Assembly (NCBI GenBank): GCA_028829895.1
Contig: CM054181.1
Coordinates: forward strand, 113,855,360-113,919,359
Origin: Sinotaia quadrata
Lineage: Eukaryota; Mollusca; Gastropoda; Architaenioglossa; Viviparidae
Direction of reading: 5' to 3'
DNA: 64,000 nucleotides
Position 1 is the stretch's first letter. Every line of letters starts with the position of its first letter. The notes beneath the pieces are model-generated. The model worked only from the letters and a program-made list of their open reading frames with translations, was not told where the DNA came from and made no database searches. The position numbers and the translations under genes were made by a program. Below are positions 13,695 to 63,964 of the stretch, piece after piece.

Positions 13695-13939
13695 CTACCT
13701 TATTTTCATCTCGACTCTTTTGAAAGACCGGAAATCATTCTTCCAGGAAAACCAAACAATGCCATCTTCACCAACAGCGCCATCTTCCTTGTAAAGACCG
13801 TTCAGGTTGGAATCATGGCAGGCTTCGTACCACCACGCTGCCGAGAACAAAAGAGCGCAGTTTTTCAGACTCGTGTTGTCGTTGTCGTTGTCGTACGTTG
13901 AAAATTGCATCGTGTTGTGGTGTGTTGTTAAGCTGTCTC
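13695..13939 (-). CDS. PAN-FBG gene, exon 5: C-terminal FBG
   Basis: It encodes GDSLTTHH, the acidic loop [27 protein letters not shown] and the terminal FKRVEMKIR before TAG. The acceptor CCGCAG gives phase 1 entry. Confidence 0.95.
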
Positions 13940-16900
13940 CTGCGGTGAAACATAAGACGTCATTGAATCACGACGTCATTTCAACAAGAATTCAAGGAAC
14001 AAAAGTAACATCCATTATGGACACGTGGGTACATATTGATAATTCATACTCGCATTAATATTATTAAATCATGCGTGCACAAATGCATGTAAATGTAGGT
14101 AAATAAGTTTATGAAATGCATGAATTCGTTTCAAAGCTGGATAAAAGGAAATATCACTCCCTGGGGCTGGCTGGTAAACATGATGTTGAAGTTATAATAT
14201 ATTGTATTATGTTTACCGTTAGTTGATATATAATAAACCTACTTTATTGAACAAAGTCAGTTTCGAGGCCGGATTGATTTAATTTCATTTACTGATAGGT
14301 GTTCGGTTCAATGTGCGTAATATTTCTAACAGTTCGTAGAACGCATATGGTTTGTTAAGTAAATATATCCTCTTATTAGAGTATTCATTCGAATTTGAAC
14401 ATGATTTAACATAAGGTTTGTTAAGTAAATATATCCTATTATCACAGTATTCATTCGAATTTGAACATGATTTAACATAAGGTTTGTTAAGTAAATATAT
14501 CCTATTATCACAGTATTCATTCGAATTTGAACATGATTTAACATAATATTTTCCAATAGCTAAGGGTAGTCGAAGCATCTCCAGAGCCATATGTCGTTTA
14601 TTGTTATTGATTTGTTCTTTGTGTGGGGCTTAAAGTAATCAGAGTATTGAAAAAGATAATAATTGTAAAGTAAACAAATACATATAAATCGAGCATTTGT
14701 TTATGTTTCATACGTTATCATTTCAAGCCAAACAAATAATAATGATCAAAACATTTTCACGTTTTGTATAGAGGAAAATAAACGTCACCTGCAGTCCCAC
14801 TATAGTCCCCTATCTGTAAACGTTATTTATAGAGAGGAAAAAACGTCACCTGCAGTCCCACTATAGTTCTATATCTGTAAACGGTATTTATAGAGAGGGA
14901 AAACGTCACATGCAGTCCCACTATAGTTCTATATCTGTAAACGTTATTTATAGAGAGGAAAAAACGTCACCTGCAGTCCCACTATAGTTCTATATCTGTA
15001 AACGGTATTTATAGAGAGGAAAAAACGTCACCTGCAGTCCCACTATAGTTCTATATCTGTAAACGGTATTTATAGAGAGGAAAAACGTCACATGCAGTTC
15101 CACTGTAGTCGCCTATCTGTAAACGGTATTTATAGAGAGGGGAAAAAACGTCACATGCAGTCCCACTGTAGTCGCCTATCTGTAGACGGTATTTATAGAG
15201 AGGAATTTAAACGTCACCTGCAGTCCCATTGTAGTCGCCTATCTGTAGACGGTATTTAAGAAGAGGAATTTAAACGTCACCTGCAGTCCCATTATAGTCG
15301 CCTATCTGTAAACGGTATTTATATATAGGAATTTAAACGTCACCTGCAGTCCCACTGTAGTCCCCTATCTGTAGACGGTATTTGTCGGACGCGTTGGAAA
15401 CGCTGAACTGTGAGTATGTAGCATAGATAGATGAGCCATTGAAGTCCTCCAGGTCGATACGGAGGGTGACATTTACATCTTCAGTCAAGATATATAGTTT
15501 TTCAAGTCCTGCAAAACCAGTAACAACATACAGCAGTCACTTACCCATAGGTATTTTCAGTTTGTGGCAGAGTACATTTGCCTATCCTTATTTTAATACT
15601 TCATTGTTTAAATTGTCAGAGTAATCCTACCTTGGGCACTCCTTATGATGGTATTTTTGTATCAGAGTTGGAAGTAAACGTTCGAGTTGAGAATATGTTA
15701 GAAATTGCTGATATAATACAAACTAATCCCAAATGAGTGAGTAGTTTTTAATTATCCAATGATTATGCTTTAGAAAATGAAACCAGCCAGTGGGCTGAGA
15801 TTAAAAAGTTTACTTGCTAATTCTATTGTCTAATCACTTGAATTTGGTGTGGCAAAGAAGTCTGGTTATGAAAGGTGGTCGTTAGCTTAATGATGAGTTA
15901 ACTGGCTAATTGAAAGAAATTGGACTTAGAAATATGTTTTTCAATTTTGCTATTGATGTGCTATACTTGTCTTTTATGTAGAGATGTATTATGTGAGTAG
16001 ACTATTATTTCTACAAACGTTTAAACTATGATACTTATATGTAGTATGCTAAAACTTGACATTGTTCTAGTGAAACCGCTAATAAAAATTAAATTATTAT
16101 TTATTTATTTTATTATTTTATTTTATTATTTTATTTTATTATTTTATTTTATTATTTTATTTATTTATTTATTTATTATTCTGTACATGTGTGTCGGGTT
16201 AATAAATACTGTTGCAGGAAACTGTAAGTAGAGATTTGAATGATGAAAGAATGGAATTAAAAGTAACAAAGTGGAAACTAGAATTTGCTCCCTGATTATA
16301 TTTTTTAGATTAAAGCAGCCTTTCATTGTATGATATGAATCTTCTGGTTTATTGATTTTAAACCGCTACAACCAGGGTAGATGCAGGAATAATCTGTTGC
16401 AGTGTATGTATAAGTGTAAGGAATACGCTACACTCCTTTGATGTATGGTGGCAAAGTATGCTGACTACACTGAACGATTTCTGGTACAGAAGAGTTACTA
16501 GAAATCACTATAATTGTTGCTCTGCTTGAAGGAACTGGTACAGCAAACTAAAGGTGCCCAGGTTGGCTTTGAGAGAACAAGCAGAGAATATGTTTACAGT
16601 GTGAGGAGAAAAACATATGGAAATTGAACTGAACCATAACTTGTTACATTGTTGCAAAACTGTGTGAAGACTATCAAGACAGTCCTTAATTCAGGTTATG
16701 TAAAGAACTATCCTGTGATTTGTATTGACACTAATGTTGAAGTGTATTTTACGATATATGACTTTGAAATATAGAAATTATTTGCCTGTGGTTTCGTGGA
16801 AATATTGATATCAAGTAATCTTACCCACATATATTCTCAGGTCAAGAGATGTAGCAATCACTTACCCACATTTATTCCCATGTCAAGAAATGTAGCAATC

Positions 16901-19184
16901 ACTTACCCACATATATTATCTGGTCAAGAGATATAGCAATCACTTATCACAAATATGCTCAGTTCAAGAGATATAGAAATTACTTACCCACATATATTCT
17001 CAGGCCAAGAGATGTAGCAATCATTTACCTACATATGTTCTCAAGACAAGAGATGTAGCAATCACTTACCCACATATATTATCTGGTCAAGAGATATAGC
17101 AATCACTTATCACAAATATGCTCAGTTCAAGAGATATAGAAATTACTTACCCACATATATTCTCAGGCCAAGAGATGTAGCAATCATTTACCTACATATG
17201 TTCTCAAGACAAGAGATGTAGCAATCACTTACCCACATATATTCTCAGGTAAAAAAAATGTAGATTTTCATGTTCTGCAATAGCACTAATAATACTCAGT
17301 AAACACTTACCAATAAAATATTTTCATTCCACACTCGATTCATTCGTTTAATAACATAATCGTCAATTACGCATGCGTAATGTATTTAAGCCACTAAACA
17401 GGTGTTCGTGCTAAATACAGGATGATGAATAAAGTCTAACGCACAAAAAGATTTCCATGCATAAAATTAGCATGACAGTCAGTGTAAAAACATCTTTGAT
17501 TGGATAGGTGCGATATAAGATTTTAAGAGAATTAAATGGAATTCACTACATTACCAATCCAAAACTCATTCATCAATTCTCCAAAGCCAAGTTCGTATTG
17601 CCACCAATTTCGGTAAAAATTTTCTGAGCCGTCCTGTCTTCGTTGTATCAACTGCAACAACGGTTAGTGTAGTTTATATTATTATACATAAATAAGTTAG
17701 TTTTGTAATATGAGTATTTAAAACAGTTTATTATCTTATTCATGTATGCATAGTACCTGCAATGTTTGTATATTTAGACTGGCACATGTTTGCTATGCTG
17801 TGTGCTTAATAAATATCGTCCGTATGTATATAAATACATTCTTTCGCACAAACAAATATTTAATAAATGAACGAATAGAGTAACTGAATGAGTGTAATAA
17901 TACCGTCCAGCCGCCATTATCAGTCGTCTGATCACAGTACACCTTCAGCCTTCTGGAGTTCCTCAGGTAGAGTGTATGGATGCCATTTTGGAAGCAATAT
18001 TTCTTAACATCCAAACAAGATGTCGGTTTCCTTACTAGAATGCAAAAGGGAAAATGTTTTAATATGTACAACTTTCATTTTTGTTCAAACGTATTTTTAA
18101 TTTTCTTTACTTGTATCTTGTTTTTTATTTGTTTTGTTATGAGTTTTCTGGAAGCAGTAATCAAAGTCCCTAAAGGACTGATTAGCATCTTGCAATGAAA
18201 GGATCAGTAAAAATAATTTGCTCACCTCCGTCCAGGGTTATCGGAAATTGTCTACGGAAGTATTATTTCAAGTCTGCATTCGTCTACATCTAAGCCTGTA
18301 GTGTTAGCCTATGTCGAAATAGATTCGTCCATCACTATGCATTTCGTTATGAACATCTACTGCCTATGTCTACATAGTCATTTGATCACGTCTACATGTG
18401 CTTTGGATAATGTCTTCACTTTTATTCATCAGTGTGTAAATAGCAATCAATTCAGATTTTCCCCCTCCTCAAATTCTACATAGCTTTTCGCCCATGTCTA
18501 CATATTTATTCGCCTGTGCCTACATAGTTATTCACTCATATCTACATAGCTATCCCCCCACCCCGGCTACTTAGTTATTTAGCCATACCTACATAGTTAG
18601 TGAGCCATATCTTCATAGATATTCACGCATATCGCCCATATCTTCATAGTTATTTGCAATATTTGCATAGTTGTTTGCCCATATCTACACAGTCATTTGC
18701 CCATATCAACATAGTTATTTGCCCATTCCTATATAGTTATTTTCCCATATATATAAATGCTATTTTCCCATATACACATAGCTATTCGCTCATATAGATG
18801 CAGAGTTATTCACCCACATAAACATATTTAATCGTCGATGTATTCCCCGTTATTCGCCCAGGTCAGCAAGGTTATTCAACCATGAGCGCCTCGTCAATTA
18901 TATGTACCTTTTTCTGTGTAGGCTTGCAGATTATCTCCCCCACCATCTGCAGCTTCTGAGAACGATGGCTGAAGATAGCAGGCCCGAGTGCTCGTGTCAA
19001 AAGCAAACGACGTACAGGCGTGCAGTTTCCTGCATACACTCGCGCATTCAACCTTTGACCGAGTCACCAACGTCTTCCCTTGCACGGAAACTCTTTGCTC
19101 AGAAAGTCTAGAAAACGTGGCCACGTCACATGCTCTGAGTCTCGTGACCAAGGTCAAAAGGACGATGAGGAACGACACGGCCAT
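13695..19184 (-). CDS. Secreted PAN/apple-like plus fibrinogen-domain lectin, 304 aa, complete
   Basis: Five exons (19184-18908, 18034-17904, 17651-17555, 15508-15344, 13939-13695) join in phases 1, 0, 1, 1 to give 915 nt ending in TAG. Residues 1-18 are a signal peptide. Residues about 19-90 have a Cys pattern (C47-x3-C51-x5-C57-x11-C69) like PAN/apple domains. Residues about 98-304 are a full FBG domain: SCLDV near the start, [21 protein letters not shown], then an Asp/Asn-rich Ca-site-like loop (YDNDND), NCA, WWYEAC, SNLNG and VEMKIR at the end. The FBG family binds acetylated sugars or protein ligands outside the cell; a pattern-recognition role is inferred. There is no IgSF domain. Intron 4 is occupied by copies of the exon 4 splice junction. 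Confidence 0.93.
14347..14546 (+). repeat. Three 66-bp direct repeats in intron 4 of PAN-FBG gene
   Basis: GTTTGTTAAGTAAATATATC recurs at about 14350, 14416 and 14482. Because 66 is a multiple of three, open frames persist on the minus strand; they are not genes. Confidence 0.95.
14762..15390 (-). repeat. ~62-bp minisatellite built from the exon 4/intron 4 junction of the PAN-FBG gene
   Basis: About ten units. The rightmost contains the real 3' end of exon 4 (sense strand ...[12 protein letters not shown], donor GTGACG at 15343). Each of the other nine or so repeats the last ~40 coding bases (TACCGT, CAGATA, AGTGGGACTGCAG) plus the start of the intron. Four or so units carry an in-frame TAG after CAGATA. 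Each unit keeps a GT donor-like site. Confidence 0.93.
15344..15508 (-). CDS. PAN-FBG gene, exon 4: FBG middle
   Basis: It encodes [20 protein letters not shown], then [15 protein letters not shown] and [14 protein letters not shown]. It is 165 bp, phase 1 to 1, the same as the FREP exon at 53524-53688. Confidence 0.94.
15540..16270 (+). repeat. Dispersed repeat family, copy 2 (partial)
   Basis: 15550-15725 matches 11145-11290 of copy 1 and, inverted, 35390-35525 of copy 3. Further matching blocks follow near 15905 and 16205. An ATTTT-rich stretch interrupts it at about 16088-16182. Confidence 0.65.
16088..16182 (+). repeat. (TTTTATTA)n-like low-complexity tract
   Basis: Repeated TTTTATTATTTTA and TTTA units. 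The open frame of about 67 codons is artefactual. Confidence 0.9.
16815..17262 (-). repeat. ~41-bp minisatellite with donor-like GTAAGT in most units, intron 3 of PAN-FBG gene
   Basis: About ten units. On the gene's sense strand each reads approximately GTGGGTAAGTGATTGCTACA followed by a TCTTGACCTGAG segment. A block of four units (about 16905-17060) is itself duplicated at about 17065-17225. The array starts about 290 bases inside the intron from the true exon 3 donor. Confidence 0.9.
17555..17651 (-). CDS. PAN-FBG gene, exon 3
   Basis: It encodes [17 protein letters not shown], then [14 protein letters not shown]. It is 97 bp, phase 0 to 1, acceptor TTGCAG and donor GTAATG. The paralogous exon 49569-49665 has the same length. 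Confidence 0.95.
17904..18034 (-). CDS. PAN-FBG gene, exon 2: FBG start
   Basis: It encodes [25 protein letters not shown] and GGWT. It is 131 bp, phase 1 to 0, acceptor TTCTAG. Confidence 0.95.
18482..18850 (+). repeat. Degenerate ~22-bp minisatellite in intron 1 of PAN-FBG gene
   Basis: Imperfect units like GCCCATATCTACATAGTTAT. Short open frames across it are artefacts. Confidence 0.85.
18908..19184 (-). CDS. PAN-FBG gene, exon 1: signal peptide and PAN/apple-like domain
   Basis: The ATG at 19184-19182 starts [19 protein letters not shown], a clear leader. The single-exon PAN-like domain follows with [14 protein letters not shown] and ACYLQ, closing at AYTEK. The donor GTACAT leaves one base, and joining to exon 2 gives a Val codon in frame. 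Confidence 0.93.
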
Positions 19185-27834: not shown

Positions 27835-30800
27835 GTAAGTGGCTGTTGATATTTATCTCTGATCTGTAACGGAAACAGAATAGAAGGTGATATGGGTAAA
27901 TCAAGTTTGGCGTGTACTTAGTGGCACGTAGATTTGGAAATGCATTATAAGGTCTTGCCTTCTTTGTCGAGTAGCCTCTATAGGTTAAACTCAGTAAAGC
28001 GATTGAAATATGGCCTTTCAGTGGTTAAAGGTTTTCCGGTGTCTTTGTATTGAGATTTTTTTTTAAAAATGAAATGCTGCTCTTAACACCAAGACATAAG
28101 CTGTAAGTTCACGAAGTACGACGCTTGTGTACATAATGATTGTGAGGGTGTTAATGAGACCTATGTGTGTAATTCCTTACCCTTCTCAGCGAGAAATAAG
28201 CTGACACTATTATAATAAAACTAAACAATTAGCATCAATATCGATATTATGAAGAATTATCATATATTATCATATAATTGTATATTATATACACTCTTCA
28301 GGCTAGTAACAATTCTACAAACCGCAATTCTAACAACGTTTATAATTTAATGAGTCAGTAGTAGATTTTAAATTTTTTGTTATTTTCAATTTTGCATCAG
28401 CAACTACATCCTACACACAGGTTTCATTTACAGCCTGAGTGACGCAATAATTGGTACTTCTCTCAACTTGGCATGAAGTACGTCACATCCGCTCAAACGT
28501 GTCAGTCTGAATTGTTGACTATTCATGCCCTGTTTTTCTTGCGTTTAATCTTTGTAAATCAGAATTTCAAACGTTACGGTACTGACGTCACCAGTTTTGA
28601 TCACATCTGTTTTGACGTCACCAGTTTTATCACAGCAATTTTTAAGTCACAAGATTTGATAATAGCAGTTTTGACGTCTCCAGTTTTGACCACAGCAGTT
28701 TTGACTGTCACCTGTTTTGACCACAGCAGTTTTTGACGTAACCAGTTTTGACCACAACAGTTTTGATCACAGTAGTTTTAAATCACAGCAGTTTTAACGT
28801 CACCAGTCTTGACCACATCAGTTTTGACGTCACCAGTCTTGACCAAAGCAGTTTTGGCGTCACCAGTTTTGACTAAAGCAGCTTTGAACGTAGGACCTGT
28901 GAATCTATAGACTTTTCCCCTAAAACCCTAAGCGCACAGCTTGTAAGTTTCAGAAGAGTTATTCACATGTATTTAGCTTTTGATCAACAGCAATATATTT
29001 TTTCATTTTGTTGCTGTTATTAATGCATATAATTCCTCTCACCACTCTCATTTTAATTGCAAATACGTCCACATTTGAAATAAATATAATAACAGGTTGT
29101 AATCTATTATACGCAAGCCTTGTATTACTGGTCACATGCTTTCAAAACCTGAATATTTGCTCTCTCTATGATCTTAAAACTTTCTTAAGGTGAAACGTGT
29201 CTGCAAACGTTCTTTAGAAACACTTTTCATTCATAAATAACACTTCTATCCTGGTGCAGGCCCCGGAGTGGACGGAGTATTTATTCCTAATGCGGAATCA
29301 GGTCAGTGATTTATCAGTTTTTGTGATTCATAGAAATATATCACTTACTTGTGGTTAATATAAATATATCAATTTTTGTGGTTCATAGAATTTATAGCAT
29401 TTTCAGACAATTCATTGTGTGCACTATTGTTTATTAGTACATGTTTGCAACATTCTGCGCAAAATAATAATTAATTACAAGAGTACATCTGGACTTTGCC
29501 CTTTTGTTTATTGTGTATTAAAAAAATATTTTTCTTACAGGTTCACCTTTAGGGCTCTCCTCCAACTTTTCTTGTTTTGCTAAAACGGAATAATTAAGAC
29601 AGTACAAGAATATTGCATCATAAAGCATTATAATATCATTATTGAACTTCAATTTGATTACTACTAGTGTGCAGTAATAAAGAATACGAATACATCACAC
29701 ACACACATCTGTTCAAAGTTATTAATCTAAGAATTGCAACTTTAAAAAGCAAAAACATAGCTTCTTTATTTGGAATTCGTCCGTTAGATTTCATATTCTA
29801 TTGTTGCTACATTTATCAGTACTCATCATATGAATTTGTAGCATATACAAGTTCAATTTATTACATAATCAAAATTTTGCTACATTTATTGCGTATTCAT
29901 TTTTCTATATTTATTTATTTTTGCTACATTTATTGTCAATTTAACACGCTGCTTAATTTATTACGTAATCAAAATGTTGCTACGTTTATTGGTGTATGTG
30001 TATGTTTCTATGTTTATTTCATACTAAATGTGTCGCTAAATTTATTTTGAATGTAACATGTTGTTTAATTTATTACATAATCTAAATTTTGCTATATTTT
30101 TGCCAATTTAAAAAGCTGTTCAATTTATTACATTAAAAGAAATGTTTCCAATTTTATTGTATATTCAAAATGTTATTAAATATTTAATATGTTGATTTTA
30201 TTACATAATCATAATGTTCCTACATTTATTGCAGAATTTATTGCATAATCAAATGTTTACTGCATTTAATGCATATTCATGTTTCTAATTTAGTACATAG
30301 TCAGTTTTTTTGCCATAGTTATTGAATATTCATCAGGCTGTTCAATTTATTATATAAATAGAATGTTGCTATCATAATTATATTTTCAGCATGTTGGTAG
30401 ATGTCTTGATATTCTTCAACATGTCAATGAATTTATCGATTTTCAACATGTTACTAATTTTTTTACATAAAAATATTGCCACAATTTTTTTTGCATAGTC
30501 ATGTTTCCGTATTTATTGCATTGTCATGTTTCAATATTTATTGCATAGTCATGTTTCAATATTTATTGCATTTTCATTTTTCAATATTTATTGCATAGTC
30601 ATGTTTCAATATTTATTGCATAGTTATGTTTCAATATTTATTGCATAGTCTTGTTTCCGTATTTATTGCATAGTCATGTTTCCGTATTTATTGCATAGTC
30701 ATGTTTCCTTATTTATTGCATAGTCATGTTTCCGCAATTATTGTATAGTCATGTTTCCGCAATTATTGCATAGTTGTGATGCCGCTACAGTTGTTCCTTA

Positions 30801-33800
30801 TTCTCGGCATTTTTTTTACATATGGTTGCACTTTTGTATTCAACAGTAATGTGTTGTTAGAAAGTAAATAATTTATTTTTTGAAATTCAAGAAATTAACG
30901 ACACGCTTAAGCCATATGTCTTGAAGAGTTTGTCTGAAATGGACTGCATTAAAAAAATAAATGGACCAGATTTTGAAAAATACTTGTTGAATCAATAAGA
31001 AAGAAAACACGCGAAGAAATTAAACACGGATGCAGATACAGGATCTGAACATTGATGGCCGAGGAATTACTGATTGAGAGACGTGTATGGAACATGACGA
31101 AAGCGTTACCATGAGATGACAAAGGCATAGACAGTAGGGCATACACACACACACACACACAAATCTTTTTAAATAAGAGCGTAAACGAAAACTAATCTTT
31201 TTTTCTTTCATTTCTCTTGCAGAAGCTGAAAAATGGGAAATATTGTCCAAGTTAAAGCCTGGTAAGTGTCGGAGAGGAGTAATCATTTGAAGTTCAAACG
31301 ATAAGCTTTTTTAATAAATTTTCATCAACAAAAATCCACTCGCTTACCTCCCCTCAACTGTCAAGCATATGCATATCACATTGCGCATGATTGTGGTTAG
31401 GTCTCAAATGAGTAAATGTGGAGAGCACGATAACACTCCACTCGCTTATCTCCCCTTAACAGTCAAGTACATGCATACCACGTACCATGATTGTGGTTAG
31501 GTTTGAAATGAGTAAATGTGGAGAGCACGATAACACTCCACTCGCTTATCTCCCCTTAACAGTCAAGTACATGCATACCACGTACCATGATTGTGGTTAG
31601 GTTTGAAATGAGTAAATGTAGAGAGCACGATAAAAGCAGATACCAAGTTCATATATGCTCTTATACTTTATTTTCATCATGAAGCACAAACACACACTAA
31701 TATCACACTTCCTACCACTGTTGTGCACTTTGAGATAAGAAGATACGAGGAAAGAACAAATACAGTTTAACGTACCATCACACAGATGTAACGAGTGTTT
31801 GAAACTAAGGAACTAATTAGCTGTAACAAGAAAAGACTTGTGTTCAGCCTTTGACTTGATACATTAAGTTCATATTGTGTTTTTAGACAATACAATTATA
31901 TCGTGTTCTATCTTTAGACGATGCATTATTGTCTTGTTTTGTCGTTAATTGTGCATTAATATCGTGTTCTGTGGTTAGACAATGCCTTAATGTCGTGCTG
32001 TCTTTAGACAATGCATTAATGTCTTGTTCTGTCTTTAGACAATGCCTTAATGTCGTGTTCTATCTTTAGACGATGCATTAATGTTGTGTTCTGTGTTTGA
32101 CTTGATGCATTAATGTTGCAACAGGTATTTTTATTCTATTACGAGAGAGCCTCTTTTAATCTCGAGAAAATTATCATCTCCACATCTACGATAATTTGCA
32201 CCTCTCATCTTGCGGGTGATGGACTGGAAGGGTGCCCCCTTGCATTCCGAGTATTTTAATGAACACTAATGAATGACCCTGACTGTATACATCCAAACAG
32301 AGAAGACAATACCCTCATAAAAAAAGCTATATCACCAGTCTGACTTATTATTAAGCTGTCATTCTATGCTAGCCTTTTAACCCAGTTATAATATAACACA
32401 GGTCAAGGGTTTTGACAAATAATGAAATAGAATTTATTAACAAATAATTAAATACACACTACATAGGAAGACATCGATTAAATACAAATAATTAAATGCA
32501 CACACACTACATAGGAAGACATTGATCAAATACAAATAAAGACATATACAATGAGGACATAACAAAAGAGGAATGTACAAACAAGAATAGAATAGAATCG
32601 ACCACCCAACAGAGTTTCCGATCTGATAAGGCTCTCTCATGAATTCTTAATAGAAAAGTTCTGAATGTATCTCTAGCTCTCTTCAGAGGCCTGAAAGTAA
32701 CATAAAACGATGATGTTATAATGACACAAACAAACATCACTGAGAGAATGAATGAGCAGTCAGATTCTTAAAAAGTCACATGACATTTTAGACGATGCTC
32801 GCTTGCTGTGCATGTCCTAGCAGTGAGACGAACTTGGCTCGAGCTGTGTGAGATGAATAATAGACTATGGAATGCTTGTGAAGTCGACAAGGCCAACAGG
32901 TTATTGCATGGATGACCAAGATGCAAGCAGGATCACAAGGAACAAAGAGGGTTTCAATAGGTCTTCAAAAAGAAGTCTTCAGAAAGATCTTCATAAAAGT
33001 GCTACCAGTCATTTCACCTGGAAATATAGTTCTTGTACTTGAGTGTTCAGACTCGCCTCTCATCTGCTCATCTACATTTCATTAATGTTCTTCAAAATTA
33101 ATTTAAGATTTAGAAAGTTCAATCATTTTGCTCTCTATCTTGACTGAACAGTCTTATTCTTTCACTACAGCCTTAAACAACCTTGAAATATTCTGCATGT
33201 TTCCCTTACTAATTGTGTACATATTGATACATGTTAAAATAACCAATGAGTAGCATTTCGTCCCATCATGAACATTTCCAAATCAATAGGAAACAGTTTC
33301 ACAGAGATTTGGATTCACTGCATTGGCTGCAACAAGTTTCTCAACATGAACTTACCAAATTAATAAAAAAAAATAGATTGGTCAACATTAAATTGCAGGC
33401 ATTTCTTCTAGTTAAAATAATATTACAAATATCTCTAGAGTTATCAAACAGCAAACTGAATTACACAGGGAAGTTAAAATACATCATCACTTGGCTGAAA
33501 AGAAAAGGCATAAAGGGTTCATTTTTCGTCAACTGAAAAAGAACACAAGTTAGGACTTATAACTTTGTGTTTACTGATGATGGCCTTATCCACACGAGTG
33601 TCAAAGCAGTGCCTCTTTTGAAGATGTGCCCTGAACCAATGCTTCAAAATGAGTGAAGATCCAGGGTTCCTCTTCACTAAGGTATCCTCATGATTTCCTT
33701 TAATGCCCATTGGCTAATTACAATCGACCAGTAGATGGCCATTTGGGTAACATCAAGTGATCAGTGCCACGGTCATTGGCCGAGCCTAATTGGCTCACTT

Positions 33801-36800
33801 CTTGCATTATACAAAAAGGCATTTTCCATCACAAGATTTGGGGTGGGTCAAGCGTTCTCAGGAATTTACACTATTGATTCTACTAGGAGTGACGACCAGT
33901 GTTATTCACTTTCCATAGTACTTCAGTGTGACACCTATGCCACACTAGTTATTGGTTATGATTAATAATGTTATTTAATCACCCATAACTAATTACGAGT
34001 AGTGAGAATCTTAATTTATGTTATTAGTAATTCTCCACTTGGTGGATATAGGAACACTGTAAATGTTTCTCTCTTCCATAACATTTAAGACAAACATTTA
34101 CCATCACACAATATTTCCGTAGTTGGAAAACTTCTTATTAAAAGAGAAGTTAAATCCATCTTTTAATCTATATTTAGCGAACCTCCACCCACCCACTTTC
34201 TTCACCAACATATGGTAATCAATATTGTAAGGTCAATAAATTTAATAATAAATCAACAATCAAATATACAGCGTAAGAATACAATCAAAAGAGTGTTAAC
34301 ATTTACATCACTTCACAACAATGTTCAATTAATGCTGAACAATCATTCATTTTATCCGAGTATATGCATTAGCAGTCATTTAACTTAATATATAATCGAG
34401 TTCACTGATATCATCACGGAAATGAGAATAGAGTTTCAGAGAAATAATTAAAGTCAACGCACATAAACAGTTCAAAGGTAGTTCCAAAGGTGTCACCAAT
34501 ACCAGTTTAAGAATCTTGCGGTTTGAACAAGTTAATGGCTTTCATATTTAGGCAATGCCTTACGTGTCCCTTCTAAAGGAATGTTACACAATTGTTCCAG
34601 AATCTATGATGCACTCTCCAAACCTGTAGAGAATCATCTTGAATTTCACCTGCTCTATCAAGGACAACAGGACAACACATCATGACATACATTCAAAATA
34701 TTCTTCGTAAATTCTCGAGACCAAACTGAAGCCACAAATCTCCATGGTATTGGCTCTTGAACAGAATCCACAGGAATCAACTTACAGCAACATGTTTTAC
34801 TGCTAAATTTGATGACAACGCTGGATGGACAAACCAATATGACAGAGCAAAGTTCAATAATCAGTGTAGCCTGACGTGGAAAAAAAAATGACATGGCCTC
34901 CTCTCCTGCAAAATTCAAATTGAGGCAGCACCAAATTTCAGGCATATTTCATCTCTAAACTATTTTTTCTCTTACATACATTCTCAACTTTCAAATCCTC
35001 CAACAATTTCGTTAGCCCCTTACACACACAACACATTAAATATAGCATCGATTAAAATTAACTAACATAACATATAATATAATCAAATTAGTGGATATAG
35101 AAATAATAGTTCAGTTACATAAAGCATTCTCAATTTATATCATAGATCAATAGTAAACATGTACGAAATATTCAAAGTCCATTCAGTTAACTTCCATAAG
35201 CTAACGATCACCTTTACTGCTGGACTCGAGTTATAAGTGATTAGTATAGTACTTGTTCAACAAAGAAACTTCCATTCCGTTCCCACTGGATGAATTTGAC
35301 ATGAACAAGTGTGAAACTATTAGTCAAAAGACTACTCATCCTGCTGGAACTGATTTGGATTGCATCAGCAATTTCTAGCCTTTCCTCGAACTGAGTTATT
35401 TACTTCCAACTTTGGCACTTATAAATATCAGCAAAAGCAGTTCCCAAGGTCGGGTCACTTTCACATTTAACACTTTATATAACAATTAAGTTTAGGGACA
35501 GGCAAATTTACTCCGCCATATCCGGGCAATGCCTAACAATCAGTTTTAGAAGCATTTTGTTTTTGTTCTACATTGTGCGTGTGTTATTAACGGTCAGTGC
35601 ACGATGTCTACTTTAAACACTACAGTGTGCGTGTGTAATTAACGGTCAGTGCACGATGTCTACTTTAAACACTACAGTGTGCGTGTGTAATTAACGGTCA
35701 GTGCACGATGTCTACTTTAAACACTACAGTGTGCGTGTGTAATTAACGGTCAGTGCACGATGTCTACTTTAAACACTACAGTGTGCGTGTGTAATTAACG
35801 GTCAGTGCACGATGTCTACTTTAAACACTACAGTGTGCGTGTGTAATTAACGGTCAGTGCACGATGTCTACTTTAAACACTACAGTGTGCGTGTGTAATT
35901 AACGGTCAGTGCAAGATGTCTACTTTAAACACTACAGTGTGCGTGTGTAATTAACGGTCAGTGCACGATGTCTACTTTAAACACTACAGTGTGCGTGTGT
36001 AATTAACGGTCAGTGCACGATGTCTACTTTAAACACTACAGTGTGCGTGTGTAATTAACGGTCAGTGCACGATGTCTACTTTAAACACTACAGTGTGCGT
36101 GTGTAATTAACGGTCAGTGCATGATGTCTACTTTAAACACTACAGTGTGCGTGTGTAATTAACGGTCAGTGCACGATGTCTACTTTAAACACTACAGTGT
36201 GCGTGTGTAATTAACGGTCAGTGCATGATGTCTACTTTAAACACTACAGTGTGCGTGTGTAATTAACGGTCAGTGCATGATGTCTACTTTAAACACTACA
36301 GTGTGCGTGTGTAATTAACGGTCAGTGCATGATGTCTACTTTAAACACTACAGTGTGCGTGTGTAATTAACGGTCAGTGCACGATGTCTACTTTAAACAC
36401 TACAGTGTGCGTGTGTAATTAACGGTCAGTGCACGATGTCTACTTTAAACACTACATATAGCTGTCCGAAATACAAGCAAGTGCTCCACAACTTGTCACA
36501 ACAAAATATTTCATAAATAATACATATATTGGTAGAAAGAAATATATCTGAAAAACAATTGATAAATAAAATTAGGGTATGGAAATATTTGTTTCATATG
36601 TCGTGCTGTCTTTAACATGATGTATTAATGTCGTGCTGTCTTTAACATGATGTATTAATGTCGTGCTGTCTTTAACATGATGTATTAATGTCGTGCTGTC
36701 TTTAACATGATGTATTAATGTCGTGCTGTCTTTAACATGATGTATTAATGTCGTGCTGTCTTTAACATGATGTATTAATGTCGTGCTGTCTTTAACATGA

Positions 36801-43418: not shown

Positions 43419-46400
43419 AAAATAAACAAATACCTTGTTTCGTACACTAAAAGATTAATTAAAAATAAAACAGAAGAAATTTGCTTGCATTCTTATTTCA
43501 CTGCCGACGTAGTGCATCACTTTGTTTCCTCCGTTTGAGGTCCACTTTATGAGGTCCACTTTATGAGGGCATTTTCTTCAATCAGTAGCAACTAAGTGAT
43601 GCTAGAGATATGGATCCAGTAGTGGACCCATGGCTGTAGTGGAGTTTTGTTAATATATGTGGTGCATCTTGTAATTGTTAAATGTTAATAACTGTCGTAT
43701 GATCTTATTAATAGCTGTAGTATGTTGTTACCAATTACTGTAGTATGTTGTTACCAATTACTGTAGGATGTTGTTACCAGTTACTGTTGTATGTTGTTAC
43801 CAATTACTGTAGTATGTTGTTACCAATTACTGTAGGATGTTGTTACCAGTTACTGTAGTATGTTGTTACTAATTACTGTAGTATGTTCCTGCTAATAGCT
43901 CTAGTATATTTTTACTAATAGTTGTACTATGTTTTGCTAGTACCTATTTTACGTTCTTATTTATAACTGTAGTATATACTTGCTACTATCAGTAGTATGC
44001 TCTTGCTCATAGATGCAATATGTTCAAGTTAATAGGTGTAATGTGTTCTTATTAATAGCTGTAATATGTTCTTGCTAATAGCTGTAATATGTTCTTGATA
44101 ATAGGTATAATAGGTTCTTGCTAATAGTTGTAATATGTTTTGCTAGTAACTGTAATATGTTCTGGCTAATAGCTGTAATATGTTCTTGCTGTTGGACATC
44201 CTTGAATGTATATGTGAGTGCTCATATACATATCTGAATCCCCATTCTCACCTCCTTCCCACCCACACTCACCTACACACGTTCCGTACATTTTGCTCTA
44301 TTTTCTTTTCTTTATTACATCTGTACAGATGACAAATAAAGCACAGGTCAATAGTACAACGTACGACAACGGGAATTTCATCTTAACGCTGACGGAGCCC
44401 ATACAAGAGGGAGACTACTCTTGTACATTAAAAGAGAATTCCGTGGCGTCAAAATGCCACCCTTCATTCGGCAAAAGCGATGGCGTCCGTATCAATGGAA
44501 CACTGACCCGTTTGTCGCTCGTCCAGCGGTTCCTGGAAGAGAGCAGCTACCAAATAATGACCACCCTGAGTCCGCAAAGCATAGCGAACTTTGCCCTTGA
44601 AAGCGATGCCAGGTTGAAACACCTGGAGAACAGGATTGCTAAGATTAACGACACAGAAGTCTTGCTGGACACTGAAATAAAAGAATATGTAAAAGCCTCT
44701 AATGCTGCCCTTGCTGATATGCAGTCAACCCTAAATGACCTATTGATCGAAGACGAGAGGGTCAAAAAGGACATCATTCGAACACGCAACGAGATTGTGG
44801 ACCTGGAGGACAAGTATCGGGCGCTGAAGGAGAAGCGGGCAACTTTGGAAGACGAGCTGGCGACTATGACAGCAGCAGCGACAACCTTCCACGCAGAGAT
44901 CCTTCAAGCAGAAAAGAACGAACTTTCAGAATCTTTCAGAGAGCGTCAAAACGAATCCATGACGCTCTCCGAACTGGTGATTAGCCATGATGTGTTACTG
45001 AAAAGTGTGAACGAGTTTCTGATAAATTTCAATAGATCTAGTGGAGAAGTAAACAAGCTGAAAATTGATCTCAAGACACACATAAACAGTTTCGACGATG
45101 AAAAGATCAATCTCTACATTGAGCGTGATGATTTATTAACAACAATCCTTGATCTGCAATTTGACAACAAATATTTTGACCCAGACCCATTTGGACTCTT
45201 CCGGAGACCATCCGTTGACACTCGTAAGTGTATAGATTTCATGTATATGTAATGTGTAAGTTGAAAGCATTTCATGCTTAAGTAATGTGTAAGTTGAAAG
45301 CATTTCATGCATAAGTAATGTGTAAGTTGAAAACATTTCATGCATAAGTAATGTGTAAGTTGAAAACATTTCATGCATAAGTAATGTGTAAGTTGAATGT
45401 GTATTATATTTTAGATAAGAGATAATATAATCCTCAAAATTAAAGGGCACATTGAAACAACAACACCAACAAACATATTAACAGAACGCCAGACTACAAC
45501 AACAACAGAACAAGGCCGAAAATGATAACGATGATGCCACCACAACACATCAACTACAATAGCGACAAAACAGAATCAACAACAGCAGCCACAACTACGA
45601 CAACAACAACAACGCCAACAAAACCGCCGCCGACAATGACAACAATGGAGGCCCAGTGAAAGGCAGTGCCTGCAGTGAGGTTACTTGAATCACCCCATTG
45701 CAGACATGATACAACTACTGCCCAGTCACCTTTACTGGCCACCAGCGCCCACCTTCATTCGTCCCAATGGGAAACCGGGACAACCACAACGACAGCGCAA
45801 ACAACAACGACAACACCTCTGGTGAGGGCAGGGGTTGAACATCTCGGGCGAACATACACACTAAGTACAGACTTGTGCTACTATCCTGGGCTCTGTTAAA
45901 CACCCCACCCCACCCCACCTCCCACCACAACAAGAATGGTGGCAACACACACAACAGTGCTTTAGTCCACGGATTAGCCCGCCTTTGCCGACCAGACTTG
46001 CTTTCGCTATGGACGAGCACACTCCGCAACCACTTCGACAACGCAACGCCGCAGAGCGAGCCAGCAACATGTACGGACACCCACAGTCTATAGAAAAGCA
46101 GGAAGTCGACATCAACACTTTTCAAAACGAGGACTACGTAACTCCCAAAGCTACGAACTACGTACTGCTACATTATATATAAAAGACTTCACAACGACAT
46201 GCTACAAATACCTCGACCAACACAGACTTCACAACGACATGCTACAAATACCTCGACCAACACAGACTTCACAACGACATGCTACAAATACCTCGACCAA
46301 CACAGACTTCACAACGACATGCTACAAATACCTCGACCAACACAGACTTCACAACGACATGCTACAAATACCTCGACCAACACAACACCAGTCTCCCCTC

Positions 46401-52300: not shown

Positions 52301-55300
52301 GAGTGGGAGTCCAAGGAAATCTCATCTTGGATATCTCTAAATCACTTATTTAAGCTTTCTGACATCTGTTGGCCAGATTCAATCTGCCGGGTTGATTCAT
52401 TTCCTATCCGGTCCTAGCTTCGCCGCCCAAGGACCAACAGTCCTCTCTTACAGAGTTGGTAATTAGATCGCACAGTCCTCTCTTAGAGACATTAGTACTT
52501 TAGGGCCCACTCTCTTACAGAAATTAGTGCTTTAGGACCCACTGTCCTCTCTTACTAATGTTAATACTTTAGGCAGTTTAGGGCCACTGTCCTCTTTTAC
52601 AGATGCTAATACTTTACTCCCAATGTCCTCTCTTACAGATGCTAATACTTTACTCCCAATGTCCTCTCTTACAGAGGCTAATATTTTAGGGCCGACTGTC
52701 CTCTCTTACAGACATTAGTATTTTAGGGCCCAGTCTCTTACAGACCCTAATACTTTAGGGCCCACTCTCTTACTGACGTTTGTACTTTAGGGCCCACTTT
52801 CCGCTCTTACAGACGTTAGTACTTTAGGGCCCACTGTCCTCTATTACAGACATTAGTACTTTAGGGCCCACTCTCTCACAGACATTAGTACTTTAGGGCC
52901 CACTGTCCTCTATTACAGACATTAGTACTTTAGGGCCCACTCTCTCACAGACATTAGTACTTTAGGGCCCACTCTCTTACAGACGTTAGTACTTTAGGGC
53001 CCACTCTCTTACAGACATTAATACTTTAGGGCCCACTCTCTTACAGACATTAATACTTTAGGGCCCACACTCTTACAGACGTTAATACTTTAGGTCCGCT
53101 TGCAGTGGCCAAAGCATGGACAAGTCAGACTGGAAATTACATAACCAGGGGAGTTGGAAAACTTGTGATTAATTAATATACCAGAAGTCACAATACTATA
53201 AGTTGAAATCACTACATTTATAATGATTTAAAGTAATTATTTAGTAATACTTAAATTATTATCATTAATGTTTAACATATTATTCTGGGTCCAGATATGT
53301 TTATCATTTATAAATTTAATAAAATTGTGAAGAGGGCAACATGCCAAAGTGGTGACCCATTGAACCATTATTACTACTAATTCTGTCAGTTTTGCTGCTA
53401 GCCATCATAACAGAAGTAAGACGAATAAAGAATCAATACAGTACGAATACTTACACATTTCTTATAAACGAAGACGTCTAGAAGATTCGTTAATTGTTAA
53501 TAATTCACTGCAATTATTTTCAGGGCTTGAAAATCTTCATCAGCTGACGATAAACCAAAACAGTATCCTGCGTATAGACCTCTTTGACTTTGATTACCAG
53601 CAAGTCTACGCCAACTACGACACCTTCTACATTTCAGATGCCACCGACAACTACCGAGTTTACGTTTCTGGATATAGTGGAAATGCGGGTATTGACCTTA
53701 ATTTTCTATAGTTATCGTTTATGTATGACGTTTTCTGTCAAATAATGTTTACATGTTCATGTGATGTTTGCTGCAAATAATGTTTATATGTTCGTGAGAT
53801 ATTTGCAGTCATGTAATAACATTTCCATGTCCACGTAATTATGCGATATTAGCTGTCAAATAAAAACTTTTACATGTAGACGTAACAATGAGATATTAGC
53901 TGTCAAATAAAAACTTTTACATGTAGACGTAACAATGGGATATTAGCTTTCAAATTATTACATGCACGTGCTCATGTGACAATGAGATGTTTGATGTTAA
54001 AGAATTACTTTATTTCGTAAGACTATTTTTTGTAAACTTTTGTAAAAGCTGGCATGGGGCATAATTGTACTGATTAGCATTATAATATGTTTTCAGAATT
54101 TAATATTGATATGTTATGATAAATATAATCTTGCTGTCAGAGAGAATGTTTAACCTTTCAGCAGCTTCATGTAAATTCAATGCCCAGTCAGCAAACTGAC
54201 AGCAATAAAGCAGTGTACCAACACTTCTCTAAGTTTGACCCTGCAGCAGAAATAAATTAATCGTGTCGTGTAAATGACCCTGCAGTGAAATACTCGAAGC
54301 TTCCTGCGTCAATGACACTGCAGATGAAATAAACGAAGCTTGCTCCGTCAATGACCCTGCACCTGAAATACACGAAACATGATAAGTAAATTACCCTGCT
54401 GTTAAAATAGACGAAACGTGATAAGTAAATGACCCTGCAGCTGAAATAAATGAAACATAAATGAAATGAATGGTAGGCTCAATTTTATTTTAAAATTCAT
54501 TGCATACAACTTCTTACCTCAAATTTTTGCTCTCATTGACCTCTCAGTGTCATGTGTTGTGCATTTTGTTTGGTATTTTTACGCTAATTGTTGAGTAAAG
54601 TTTAAAATGAAGTTTTAAACTGAAGTTTATAATGAGCACCTAAGGCTTGTTATAAACGACAGATGTCGACCACCGCCGACACTATGAATTTTGTTGTTGT
54701 TTTTTTACATCTATATATGTTCATCTTCGTCGTCGTTTTCACTCTCAAAATATAATCCCGCCACATTTAGAAAGTCATTAAATGCATTCACCTAATTCAC
54801 CATCGTAATTGTCACTCCCAAAATATAATCCCGCCACATTTAGAAAGTCATTAAATGCATTCACCTAATTCACCATTTCATTGTCATATTCATTACATTC
54901 ATTTTCACTTGGTCATAATAATAATATTCGTAGCATTTCTCATCTCAAAGCAATTTCTTGTATACGGATACAAATGATACATTCAGCTTTAGGAAGAGTA
55001 TTCACGCAGCCATTTGATATCTAATCATTATCGCATTACCAGAAAACTTATTCGTCTCCATCACTGTCACATTTTTTTGTAATCCATTAAAACTATCTGG
55101 AAATGTTAGATGATAACAACGCAAAGAACACAATAGCATCTGTGTGACGTCTGGTGGAGTGGGTGGTCACGCTAAATGTTAGTTACTGTAAATGCGCCCC
55201 TCCGCTTCCTGCATTAACTAAAATTACAAGAAGAGTCATGTTCCAGGATTGGACCGCTGGGTAAGTATGGATGGAAGATAGACAGTAGACTAACAGCATC

Positions 55301-59686: not shown

Positions 59687-61209
59687 GTAAGTGGCTGTTG
59701 ATATTTATCTGTGATCTGTAACGGAAATAGAATAGAAGGTGATATGGTAAATCGAGATATTATGAAGAATTATCATATATTTAATATAATATATTATATA
59801 CGCTACTCATGCTAGTAACTATTCTACAAACCACAATTTTAACAACGTTTATAATTTAATGAGTCAGTAGTAGATTTTAAATTTACCACATTGTTATTTT
59901 CAAATTTGCATCAGCAACTACATCCTACACACAGGTTTCATTTACAGCCTGACTAAGGCAATAATTAGCTCTTCTCTCAACTTGGCATGAAGTACGTCAC
60001 ATCCGCTCAAACGTGTTAGTCTGAATTGTTGACTATTCATGCCCTGTCTTTAACTTTTTCCTGCGTTTAGTCTTTGTAAATCACAAATTTACGGTACTGA
60101 CGTCACCAGTTTTGATCACATCTGTTTTGACGTCACCAGTTTTATCACAACAATTTTTAAGTCACAAGATTTGATCACAGCAGTTTTGGCGTCACCAGTT
60201 TTGACCACAACAGTTTTGAACGTCGCTAGTTTTGACCACGGCAGTTTTGACAGGCACCTGTTTTGACAAAAGCAGTTTTGACATAACCAGTTTTGACCAC
60301 AGCAGTTTTAATCACAGCAGTTTTGACATCACCAGTCTTGACCACAGCAGTTTTGACGTCACCAGTTTTGACCACAGCAGCTTTTGAACGTAAGACCTGT
60401 GAATCTATAGACTTTTCCCCTAAAACCCTAAGCGCACAGCTTGTAAGCTTCAGAAGAGTTATTCACATGTATTTAGCTTTTGGCCCAACAATATATATTT
60501 TTTCATTTTGCTGCTGTTATTAATACATATAATTCCTCTCACCATTCTCATTTTAATTGTAAATACGTACACATTTGAAATAAATATAATACCAGGTTGT
60601 AATCTATTATACGCGAGCCTTGTATTACTGGTCACATGCTTTCAAAACCTGAATATTTGCTCTCTCTATGATCTTAAAACTTTCTTAAGGTGAAACGTGT
60701 CTGCAAACGTTCTTTAGAAACACTTTTCATTCATAAATAACACTTCTATCCTGGTGCAGGCCCCGGAGTGGACGGAGCATTTATTCCTAATCCGGAATCA
60801 GGTCAGTGATTTATCAGTTTTTGTGATTCATAGAAATATATCACTTACTTGTGGTTAATATAAATATATCAGTCTTTGTGGTTCATAGAATTTATAGCAT
60901 TTTCAGACAATTCATTGTGTGCACTATTGTTTTTTTAGTACATGTTTGCAACATTCTGCGCAAAATAATAATTAATTACAAGAGTACATCTGGACTTTGC
61001 CCTTTTGTTTATTGTGTATTAAAAAAATATTTTTCTTACAGGTTCACCTTTAGGGCTCTCCTCCAACTTTTCTTAAAACGGAATAATTAAGACAGTACAA
61101 GAATATTGCATCATGAAGCATTATTATATCATTATTCAACTTCATTTGATTACTACTAGCGTGCAGTAATAAAGAATACGAATATATCACACACACACAC
61201 ACACACACA

Positions 61210-61255
<46 letters not shown>

Positions 61256-62577
61256 CTGTTCAAAGTTATTAATCTAAGAAATGCAACTTTAAAAATCAAA
61301 AACATATCACAGCTTTTTTTATTTGGAATTCTTCTGTTAAATTTCACATTCTATTGTTGTTTCACTTATTAGTACTCAGTATGTTCTTGAATTTGTAGCA
61401 TATACAAGTTCAATTTATTACTTAATCAAAATTTTGCTATATTTATTGCGTAGTAATTTTTCTATATTTAATTTTTGCTACATTTATTGCCAATTTAACA
61501 CGCTTCTTAATTTATTACGTAATCAAAATGTTGCTACGTTTATTGTGTATGTGTATGTTTCTATGTTTATTTCATACTAAATGTGTCGTTAAATTTATTT
61601 TGAATGTAACATATTGTTTAATTTATTACATAATCAAAATGTTGCTATATTTTTGCCAATTTAACAAGCTGTTCAATTTATTACATAATAAAAATGTTGC
61701 CAATTTTAATGTATATTCAAAATGTTATTAAATAATAATACGTTGATTTTATTACATAATCATAATTTTCCTACATTCATTGCAGAATTTATTGCATAAT
61801 AACATGTTTACTGTATTTAATGCATATTCATGTTTCTAACTTAGTACTTAGTCAGTTTTTTGCCATAGTTATTGAATATTCATCAGGCTGTTCAATGTAT
61901 TATATAAATAGAATGTTGCTATCATAATTATATTTTCAGCATGTTGGTAGATGTCTTGATATTCTTCAACATGTCAATGAATTTATCGATTTTCAACATG
62001 TTACTGATTTTTTTACATAAAAATATTGCCACATTTTTTTTGCATAGTCATGTTTCCGTATTTATTGCATAGTCATGTTTCAATATTTATTTCATTGTCG
62101 TGTTTCCGTATTTTTTGCATAGTCATGTTTCCGTATTTATTGCATAGTCATGTTTCCGTATTTATTGCATAGTCATGTTTCCGTATTTATTGCATAGTCG
62201 TGTTTCCGTATTTATTGCATAGTCGTGTTTCCGTATTTATTGCATAGTCATGTTTCCGTATTTATTGCATAGTCGTGATGCTGCTACAGTTGTTCCTTAT
62301 TCTCGGCATTTTTTTACATTTGGTTGCACTTTTGTATTCAACAGTAATGTGTTGTTAGAAAGTAAATAATTTATTTTTTGAAATTCAAGAAATTAACGAC
62401 ACGCTTAAGCCATATGTCTTTAAGAGTTTGTCTGAAATGGACTGCATTAAAAAAATAAATGTACCAAATTTTGAAAAATACTTGTTGAATCAATAAGAAA
62501 GAATTAATGATTGTCGAGACGTGTAAGGAACAGAACGAAAGCGTTACCACGAAATGACAAATGCATAGACAGTAGGG

Positions 62578-62622
<45 letters not shown>

Positions 62623-62760
62623 GCACGCACGCACATACACACACACACACACACACACAAATCTTTTTTAAATAAGAGCGTAAAAGAAAACTAATCTTTT
62701 TTGCTTTCATTTCTCTTGCAGAAGCTGAAAAATGGGAAATATTGTCCAAGTTAAACCCTG
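59638..62760 (+). CDS. Second FREP gene, 5' end only (leader and two microexons)
   Basis: Three exons equivalent to exons 1-3 of the upstream gene: 59638-59686 ([16 protein letters not shown]), 60760-60801 (CPGVDGAFIPNPES) and 62722-62760 ([13 protein letters not shown]). Splice sites, lengths (49, 42, 39 bp) and phases are unchanged. Four substitutions separate the two sets and all change an amino acid. IgSF, coiled-coil and FBG exons would lie right of the window. Whether this copy is a complete gene cannot be judged here. Confidence 0.7.
60090..60385 (+). repeat. ~30-bp minisatellite with TGACGTCA, copy B
   Basis: Same array as 28575-28890, again with at least three perfect TGACGTCA octamers. 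Confidence 0.9.
60760..60801 (+). CDS. Second FREP copy, exon 2 (42-bp microexon)
   Basis: Same boundaries and phases as 29260-29301; Val to Ala and Ala to Pro. Confidence 0.6.
61185..61255 (+). repeat. (CA)n microsatellite
   Basis: Long CA run at the position of a short ACAC run (about 29697-29706) in copy A. Confidence 0.97.
61390..62280 (+). repeat. AT-rich ~24-bp minisatellite, copy B
   Basis: Same family as 29800-30790; the last ten or so units are more homogeneous here. Confidence 0.88.
62578..62660 (+). repeat. (CA)n microsatellite near microexon 3 of copy B
   Basis: CA run with GCAC variants ending about 60 bases before the acceptor. The run is about 20 bases long in copy A. Confidence 0.97.
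62722..62760 (+). CDS. Second FREP copy, exon 3 (39-bp microexon)
   Basis: Acceptor TCTCTTGCAG and donor GTAAGT retained; Lys to Asn near the end. Confidence 0.65.
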
Positions 62761-62833
62761 GTAAGTGTCGGGGAGGAGTAATCATTTGAAGTTCAAACGA
62801 TAAGCTTTTTTAATAAATTTTCATCAACAAAAA

Positions 62834-63030
62834 TCCACTCGCTTACCTCCCCTCATCTGTCAAGTACATGCATATCACATTGCGCATGATTGTGGTTAGG
62901 TCTCAAATGAGTAAATGTGGAGAGCACGATAACACTCCACTCGCTTATCTCCCCTTAACAGTCAAGTACATGCATACCACGTACCATGATTGTGGTTAGG
63001 TTTGAAATGAGTAAATGTAGAGAGCACGAT
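62834..63030 (+). repeat. ~100-bp tandem repeat, two copies
   Basis: Counterpart of the three-copy array at 31328-31640. Confidence 0.92.
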
Positions 63031-63324
63031 AAAAGCAGATACCAAGTTCATATATGGTCTTATACTTTATTTTCATCAAAAAGCACAAACACACACTAAT
63101 ATCACACTTCTAACCACTGTTGTTCACTGAGATAAGAAGATACGAGGAAAGAACAAATACAGTTAAACGTACCATCACACAGAAGTAACGAGTGTTTGTA
63201 ACTAAGGAACTAATTAGCTGTAACAAGAAAAGAGGTGTTTCTCATATCGAGTTTCTGCTTTAACTGATGCATTCATATTGTGTTCAGCCTTTAACTTGAT
63301 GCATTAAGTCCATTATTTCTTTAT

Positions 63325-63665
63325 CAGTTAACTTACCATAAGCTAACGATTGCCTTTACTGCTGGACTCGAGTTATAAGTGATTAGAATATAGTACTTGT
63401 TCAACAAAGAAACTTCCATTCCGTTCCCACTGGATGAATTTGACATGAACAAATGTGAAACTATTAGTCAAAAAAACTACTCATCCTGCTGGAACTGATT
63501 TGGATTGCATCAGCAATTTCTAGCCTTTCCTCGAACTGAGTTATTTACTTCCAACTTTGGCACTTATAAATATCAGCAAAAGTAGTTCCCAAGGTCGGGT
63601 CACTTTCACATTTAACACTTTATATAACAATTAAGTTTAGGGACAGGCAAATTTACTCCGCCACA
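63325..63665 (-). repeat. Dispersed repeat family, copy 8 (fragment shared by the duplication)
   Basis: Same sequence as 35185-35525 of copy 3. The rest of copy 3 is absent here. Confidence 0.75.
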
Positions 63666-63718
63666 TCCGGGCAATGCCTAACAATCAGTTTTAGAAGCAT
63701 TTTGTTTTTGTTCTACAT

Positions 63719-63822
63719 TGTGCGTGTGTAATTAAGGGTCAGTGCATGATGTCTACTTTAAACACTACAGTGTGCGTGTGTAATTAACGGTCAGTGCACG
63801 ATGTCTACTTTAAACACTACAT
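63719..63822 (+). repeat. 52-bp minisatellite, two copies
   Basis: Counterpart of the 17-copy array at 35575-36456. Confidence 0.95.
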
Positions 63823-63964
63823 ATAGCTGTCCGAAATACGAGCAAGTGCTCCACAACTTGTCACAACAAAATATTTCATAAATAATACATATATTGGTAG
63901 AAAAAAATATATGTGGAAAAAAAGGGACAAATAGTAGGTTTGGAAATATTTGTCACATATATCG

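Follow-up and report, generated by a model that had tools for sequence, protein, structure and literature searches.

A minisatellite spanning the exon 4 donor of a PAN-fibrinogen gene in the snail Sinotaia quadrata, and its counterparts in the gene family

The stretch of DNA considered here (64,000 nucleotides (nt) of the gastropod Sinotaia quadrata, positions 113,855,360 to 113,919,359 of contig CM054181.1, assembly GCA_028829895.1; in the following, the window) carries on its minus strand a gene whose fourth exon ends inside a minisatellite, each unit of which resembles the junction between that exon and the intron that follows it. A five-exon model of the gene gives an open frame of 304 amino acids, and the encoded protein matches the Pfam families PAN_1 (E 9.6e-07) and Fibrinogen_C (E 2.1e-69), in agreement with an initial annotation, made from the letters of the sequence, that had named it a PAN-FBG (fibrinogen-domain) gene. 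Its top match among solved structures is ficolin-1 (E 2.6e-54), in an alignment that continues across the junction of exons 4 and 5 and shows no insertion as long as a repeat unit, and the gene is probably a lectin of the immune type. Its exons, in order of transcription and in window coordinates, are:

18908..19184, minus strand: exon 1, with the PAN domain and a probable signal peptide (gene model; PAN_1 at residues 35-76)
17904..18034, minus strand: exon 2, start of the fibrinogen domain (gene model; donor matched in ten cluster genes)
17555..17651, minus strand: exon 3 (gene model and homology across cluster genes)
15344..15508, minus strand: exon 4, 165 nt; unit 1 of the array has as its exon part the last 40 nt (15383-15344)
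13695..13939, minus strand: coding portion of exon 5, TAG stop included (gene model and cluster homology)

The array itself, in which a slash marks the exon-intron boundary, is composed as follows:

14768..15383, minus strand: junction-spanning minisatellite, ten units of 60-63 base pairs (bp) (tandem-repeat call and unit alignment)
15321..15383, minus strand: unit 1, very likely the functional one, with 40 nt of exon 4 and the donor CAG/GTGACG at 15344/15343 (gene model and unit alignment)
15132..15320, minus strand: units 2-4, decoys; intron part of the form TTTAAATTCC, as in unit 1, in units 2 and 3, and CAT/GT in unit 4
14950..15131, minus strand: units 5-7, decoys; unit 5 with CAT/GT, units 6 and 7 identical and with an in-frame TAG
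14768..14949, minus strand: units 8-10, decoys; unit 8 with CAT/GT, TAA and TAG, unit 9 equal to units 6 and 7, unit 10 with TAA

Tandem Repeats Finder reports 14767-15383 with a period of 63, 10.0 copies and a score of 850, and the donor-to-donor spacings along the ten units are 63, 63, 63, 63, 60, 61, 61, 60 and 61. Unit 1 joins the last 40 nt of exon 4 to 23 nt of intron, the donor included, and the intron part of the units of the array measures 20-23 nt. The unit described in the initial annotation (about 40 coding bases, GTGACG and the start of the intron) is thus what the alignment of the units returns; the interval given there, 14762-15508, is the array plus all of exon 4 rather than the array alone, and the ten decoy donors announced are nine decoys and one real donor, the description of consecutive donors placed behind exon-like sequence being otherwise correct. 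The similarity, which might have ended before the coding part, was found to reach into the exon, where units 2-10 match unit 1 at 36, 38, 38, 36, 35, 35, 33, 35 and 37 of 40 positions (33-38/40). The best local alignment of the junction with its own intron runs from exon position -40 to intron position +60 with a score of 165; the 60-nt junction scores 100, and the maximum among 50 dinucleotide shuffles is 24, so that chance similarity can be rejected.

The donor GT, and indeed the full GTGACG, is present in 10/10 units, as CAG/GTGACG in seven and as CAT/GTGACG in three (units 4, 5 and 8). As had been noted for several units, stops occur in the exon frame: units 6, 7, 8 and 9 contain a TAG, and units 8 and 10 have a TAA in their exon part. 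Units 6, 7 and 9, unlike the remaining units, are identical to one another, a pattern suggestive of recent copying; in units 2 and 3 the exon end encodes an S-to-N variant. Across the ten units 30/40 exon columns are invariant and 10/40 variable, the latter falling at codon positions 1, 2 and 3 in four, two and four cases, with no sign of coding constraint. The lower diversity of the exon part (0.115, against 0.31 for the intron part) was considered as a mark of constraint and rejected, the intron value being inflated by misalignment of insertions and deletions.

The identification of the working donor makes use of a cluster of ten fibrinogen genes, the array gene included, which share a common exon layout in the 264 kb around the window; one further row, which is a decoy unit of the array, and a broken extra copy of exon 5 at the far end of the region were left out. 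Six junctions per gene, 60 in all, were placed by homology projection from one query. The boundaries of exon 4 are 165 nt apart in 10/10 genes, an equality that the projection partly imposes; because the positions were projected from one query, the independent evidence is given by the splice signals, and GT or AG stands at 60/60 projected junctions. Since the same canonical boundary of exon 4 is found across the ten genes, the donor in use is very likely that of unit 1, as the initial annotation had assumed for the exon-proximal (rightmost) unit. Extension of the exon to any one of the nine decoys is predicted to add 63 to 555 nt and to end the protein with ...GTAGDV-stop at residue 227, so that only the donor of unit 1, among the ten, is predicted to preserve the reading frame. 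The donor motif alone cannot single out unit 1, because six of the nine decoys are identical to it from -3 to +6. The predicted U1 pairing is -8.6 kcal/mol for unit 1 and for these six decoys. The three CAT decoys are given -2.0, and the exon 1, exon 2 and exon 3 donors -5.6, -4.4 and -6.4 kcal/mol, respectively. The copies being indistinguishable by local motif, the choice of donor would therefore have to rest on position and exon context.

When the 984-Mb assembly was searched with the unit, ten matches were returned, all inside the array. Because the unit matched nowhere else, the array probably arose in place, and the origin of the unit from the exon edge, proposed earlier, is supported both by this confinement and by the similarity that crosses the junction; a dispersed repeat that merely happens to sit at the exon is an explanation that the ten matches leave unsupported. 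We therefore favour, with a probability of about 0.86, the reading of the array as a 'mirage', in which an exon-intron junction has given rise on the spot to a minisatellite, the copy attached to the exon being functional and the decoys being spliced out. As judged from the anatomy of the locus, the last 40 nt of exon 4 and the first ~20 nt of intron 4 would have been duplicated in tandem, and further copying would have placed nine decoy exon ends in the opening part of the intron; the exon-attached copy would remain functional because only that copy continues the exon body and the reading frame, and the decoys would leave with the intron. The array would then be one case of a dense turnover of minisatellites near fibrinogen-family genes, in which exon edges are repeatedly overrun. 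Intron gain by tandem duplication, which calls for a new intron position, was rejected: the nine remaining cluster genes have an intron at this position too, and in none of them was the exon-4 junction seen to be copied.

Several points weigh against this reading. The genome search skips very common words, and distant or degenerate relatives of the unit could escape it. The silent removal of the decoys is deduced from sequence. The GT at 10/10 donors might suggest that the decoys are maintained, an argument for selection that was rejected in view of the 30/40 exon columns that are equally invariant, six invariant columns being not unusual on that background (0.75^6, ~0.18). Finally, in the cluster arrays are found at 2/60 junction sites, as compared with 16, 20, 19 and 21/60 sites at 200, 300, 400 and 500 nt into the introns, and overrunning the edge of an exon may be costly in this region; a genome-wide enrichment of arrays at junctions is accordingly not claimed, arrays being rarer at the junctions of the cluster than deeper in its introns.

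Mirages were described in amphioxus, in the genes for Adh3, the globins BflGb6 and BflGb9 and troponin C, with similar repeats in PGBD5, as repeats that lie across exon-intron boundaries and show length instability, which in Adh3 is also somatic; in the two reports they are said to leave regular splicing undisturbed (PMC3087553, PMC3902484). The window array shares with them the tandem units across an exon-intron boundary and the splice signals in the copies (ten GT), and in the family as a whole both 5' and 3' boundaries are affected (the acceptor of gene L034 and one acceptor in the cluster, see below). The likeness is closest to BflGb9, where, as here, the 3' boundary of an exon is duplicated. 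The differences are that the one host is a chordate and the other a gastropod, that here ten units stand at one donor and several genes of one family are affected, and that length polymorphism and regular splicing are reported there, whereas the window array is known from the sequence of one assembly. The window array is thus a true and clear mirage, of a known kind; what is new, and unusual, is the recurrence of mirages within one gene family of the immune type.

A minisatellite with multiple splice donors was reportedly described in human 6-16 (IFI6) by Turri in 1995; its unit is short, 12 bp. According to a later source, some of the several downstream donors of the IFI6 minisatellite are used in mRNA (PMC4526556), so that the likeness lies in a minisatellite that provides a series of donors at one exon end, and the difference in the use of those donors, the decoys of the window being known as sequence. 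Variable internal tandem repeats at exon-intron boundaries are also found in human genes of segmental duplications, and the recently duplicated families in which they occur offer a further parallel; those repeats, however, go together with novel introns that transcripts support, whereas the intron position in the window is common to paralogues that lack the array (PMC2812944). Among invertebrates, there are reports of a minisatellite within an intron in abalone (PMC6905558) and minisatellites in the first intron in earthworm (PMC12783039). No junction-spanning array of a mollusc was recognised in the open-licence literature, as judged mostly by titles and the beginnings of abstracts, which is weak evidence of absence. 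In Biomphalaria fibrinogen-domain genes are clustered and one member carries a PAN domain, as in the window (PMC5440852); the consulted text on these clustered genes differs in making no mention of junction minisatellites.

The environment of the array is itself rich in repeats, arrays with a period of at least 10 covering 22% of the readable DNA of the 264-kb cluster (15,000 bases of which are N). At 3/60 cluster junctions the splice site is itself part of a tandem copy: the exon-4 array, a donor (C5:113956345, 49 bp x 2.2, with 2 nt of exon included) and an acceptor outside the window (C5:113964264, minus strand, 75 bp x 5.1), whose array ends exactly at the working AG. Only the exon-4 array, among the three, includes more than 2 nt of exon. 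The base-exact end at the AG of C5:113964264 looks as if the exon edge had been a hard stop for the growth of that array. Near misses are seen at two other exon-4 donors, with arrays that begin 8-12 nt inside the intron, at one exon-5 acceptor, where an array lies 6 nt into the intron, and at two more exon-5 acceptors, where a copy of the intron end, from ~375 and ~195 nt upstream, halts 2 nt before the junction. Three more of the 60 junctions exceed 50 shuffles by 1-4 points only and were not counted among the hits (coordinates of the 264-kb region):

93482: exon-5 acceptor
203579: exon-4 acceptor, whose copy would cross the junction
115508: exon-4 acceptor

Beyond the cluster, 20 further equivalents of exon 4 were taken from a whole-genome search (at least 152 matches, from the 150 candidates scored out of 581). 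Of the matches listed, 21 lay beyond the 264-kb region and corresponded to exon 4; one of these, with two internal stops, was left out. They were picked by their position on the profile and not by repeats. Among these listed matches, 12/20 acceptors have junction-crossing tandem copies in which 9-54 nt of exon are aligned, with scores above those of 100 shuffles:

Positive acceptors (local alignment against 100 shuffles): L029, L031, L033, L034, L036, L037, L038, L039, L040, L043, L046, L048

The acceptor of L044 is marginal (33 against 29), and the seven others have a score of 30, which is due to the overlap of query and target with themselves. The strongest array, at the acceptor of L034, is of 55 bp x 8.9 and extends 34 nt into the exon. 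Six arrays have spacings of 68-69 bp or multiples thereof and probably go back to one ancestral event; because of this common spacing the independent events are fewer than 12, perhaps four or five as estimated from unit length. The donors of the same 20 exons give 0/20 with a junction-crossing copy; an array of 56 bp x 17.6 begins 7 nt inside the intron at the donor of L041 and a 26-bp array 18 nt inside at that of L042, and a GA microsatellite begins directly at the exon-4 donor of L038, L039, L040 and L044.

As a control, 18 chaperonin (Cpn60_TCP1) exons without internal stop, hand-picked from 51 matches, were compared with the fibrinogen exons by a common measure based on simple shuffles. 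None of the 18 is overlapped by an array, a single one has an array no more than 20 nt away (an abutting one of 10 bp x 2.7), 0/36 edges have an echo and arrays make up 0.4% of the flanks; the fibrinogen exons show array overlap in 9/20, an array within 20 nt in 11/20, an echo at 18/40 edges (13 acceptors including that of L044, and five donors, four of them with the GA stretches) and arrays over 29% of the flanks. The chaperonin edges are the ends of profile matches rather than mapped junctions, the flanks are of ~150-200 nt, and gene class and location differ, so the comparison documents a contrast and not its cause. Minisatellites can be abundant near contig ends. Several fibrinogen clusters lie in such places (C3 near 0 and 140 of 146 Mb, C8 at 53 of 54, C5 at 133-134 of 134), and chromosomal position may be what lies behind the excess of arrays.

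A different fate of the decoys would follow if they were used to an appreciable extent, in which case transcripts with an early stop would arise and the array would act as a built-in switch for truncation or decay, tunable by copy number, comparable to the minisatellite of human IFI6, the units of which act as donors. The six decoys that equal the real donor from -3 to +6 share its predicted pairing of -8.6 kcal/mol, stronger than that of the donors of exons 1-3, and all nine lead to the predicted stop at residue 227; the lack of interference with regular splicing reported for amphioxus mirages (PMC3087553, PMC3902484) points the other way, and use on such a scale is considered unlikely.

That the intronic copies form an archive of variants of the exon edge, from which conversion or unequal exchange could rewrite the exon and so feed the diversity of immune lectins, is very unlikely. 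It draws on the five decoys listed in L038, L039, L040 and L044, which match the exon of L034, a gene on another contig, at 28, 33, 28, 30 and 32 of 34 positions and their own exon at 22, 26, 22, 26 and 24 (5/5 nearer to L034), as well as on the S-to-N variant of units 2 and 3 of the window. The listing covers ungapped copies with at least 22/34 matches, and 14/20 genes are without any; the eight decoys listed in L034 and L048 resemble their own exon most, and the pattern of the five fits equally well fossils of an ancestral exon, left while the working exon changed. Most simply, an older state of the exon edge would be kept in some of the intronic copies, whose rewriting into the exon is possible. 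Expansion of a single junction by misassembly, finally, is hardly credible: the copy number is that of the one assembly, but the units vary at 10/40 exon columns and in length, the array takes up only 616 bp of a 134-Mb contig, and different arrays of like kind are present at other genes of the family.

Under the favoured reading of an array born in place, the gene provides a natural experiment in the choice of splice sites, in which the end of a single exon offers ten donors, of which seven are identical from -3 to +6, with the cluster paralogues without the array as the natural comparison. The recurrence in the family opens the question of whether position and exon body are sufficient to define an exon edge, and bears also on the lifespan of such arrays and on an intronic store of exon variants in immune genes of invertebrates. 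A wider, quite unlikely proposal is that junction minisatellites, recurrent in this family of fibrinogen-domain lectins, keep making decoy ends on both sides of exons and preserve old variants of their edges, and may so feed variation or tunable truncation.

Other arrays of the window are of a different make. One of them lies in intron 3 of the same gene:

16820..17250, minus strand: separate 41-bp array with six GTAAGT motifs

The predicted U1 pairing of these motifs, -11 to -12 kcal/mol, is stronger than that of the four real donors of the gene. An origin of this array from an exon edge is unsupported, no coding part having been found in it; it is similar to the sequence that lies 24-52 nt upstream of exon 4 (24/29 identical, score 33 against a maximum of 30 among 500 shuffles). 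On the plus strand, a likely donor at 45224 (CTC/GTAAGTG) follows the long open frame of a neighbouring gene, and 12 nt further on a 33-bp array (45236-45397) contains five TGT/GTAAGTTG motifs, possibly as a second, degenerate donor array; the evidence that the donor at 45224 is itself a degenerate unit was judged weak, its score being reached by 9/2000 shuffles with a query that included part of the array. At 52440-53094, also on the plus strand, an array of ~32-37 bp in the intron before exon 4 of another fibrinogen gene repeats many times an acceptor-like CTCTCTTACAG motif, with no coding part seen. Lastly, 28583-36456 and 60098-63849 carry similar series of minisatellites in the same order, ~31.5 kb apart at their start, which suggests a large duplication within the cluster.
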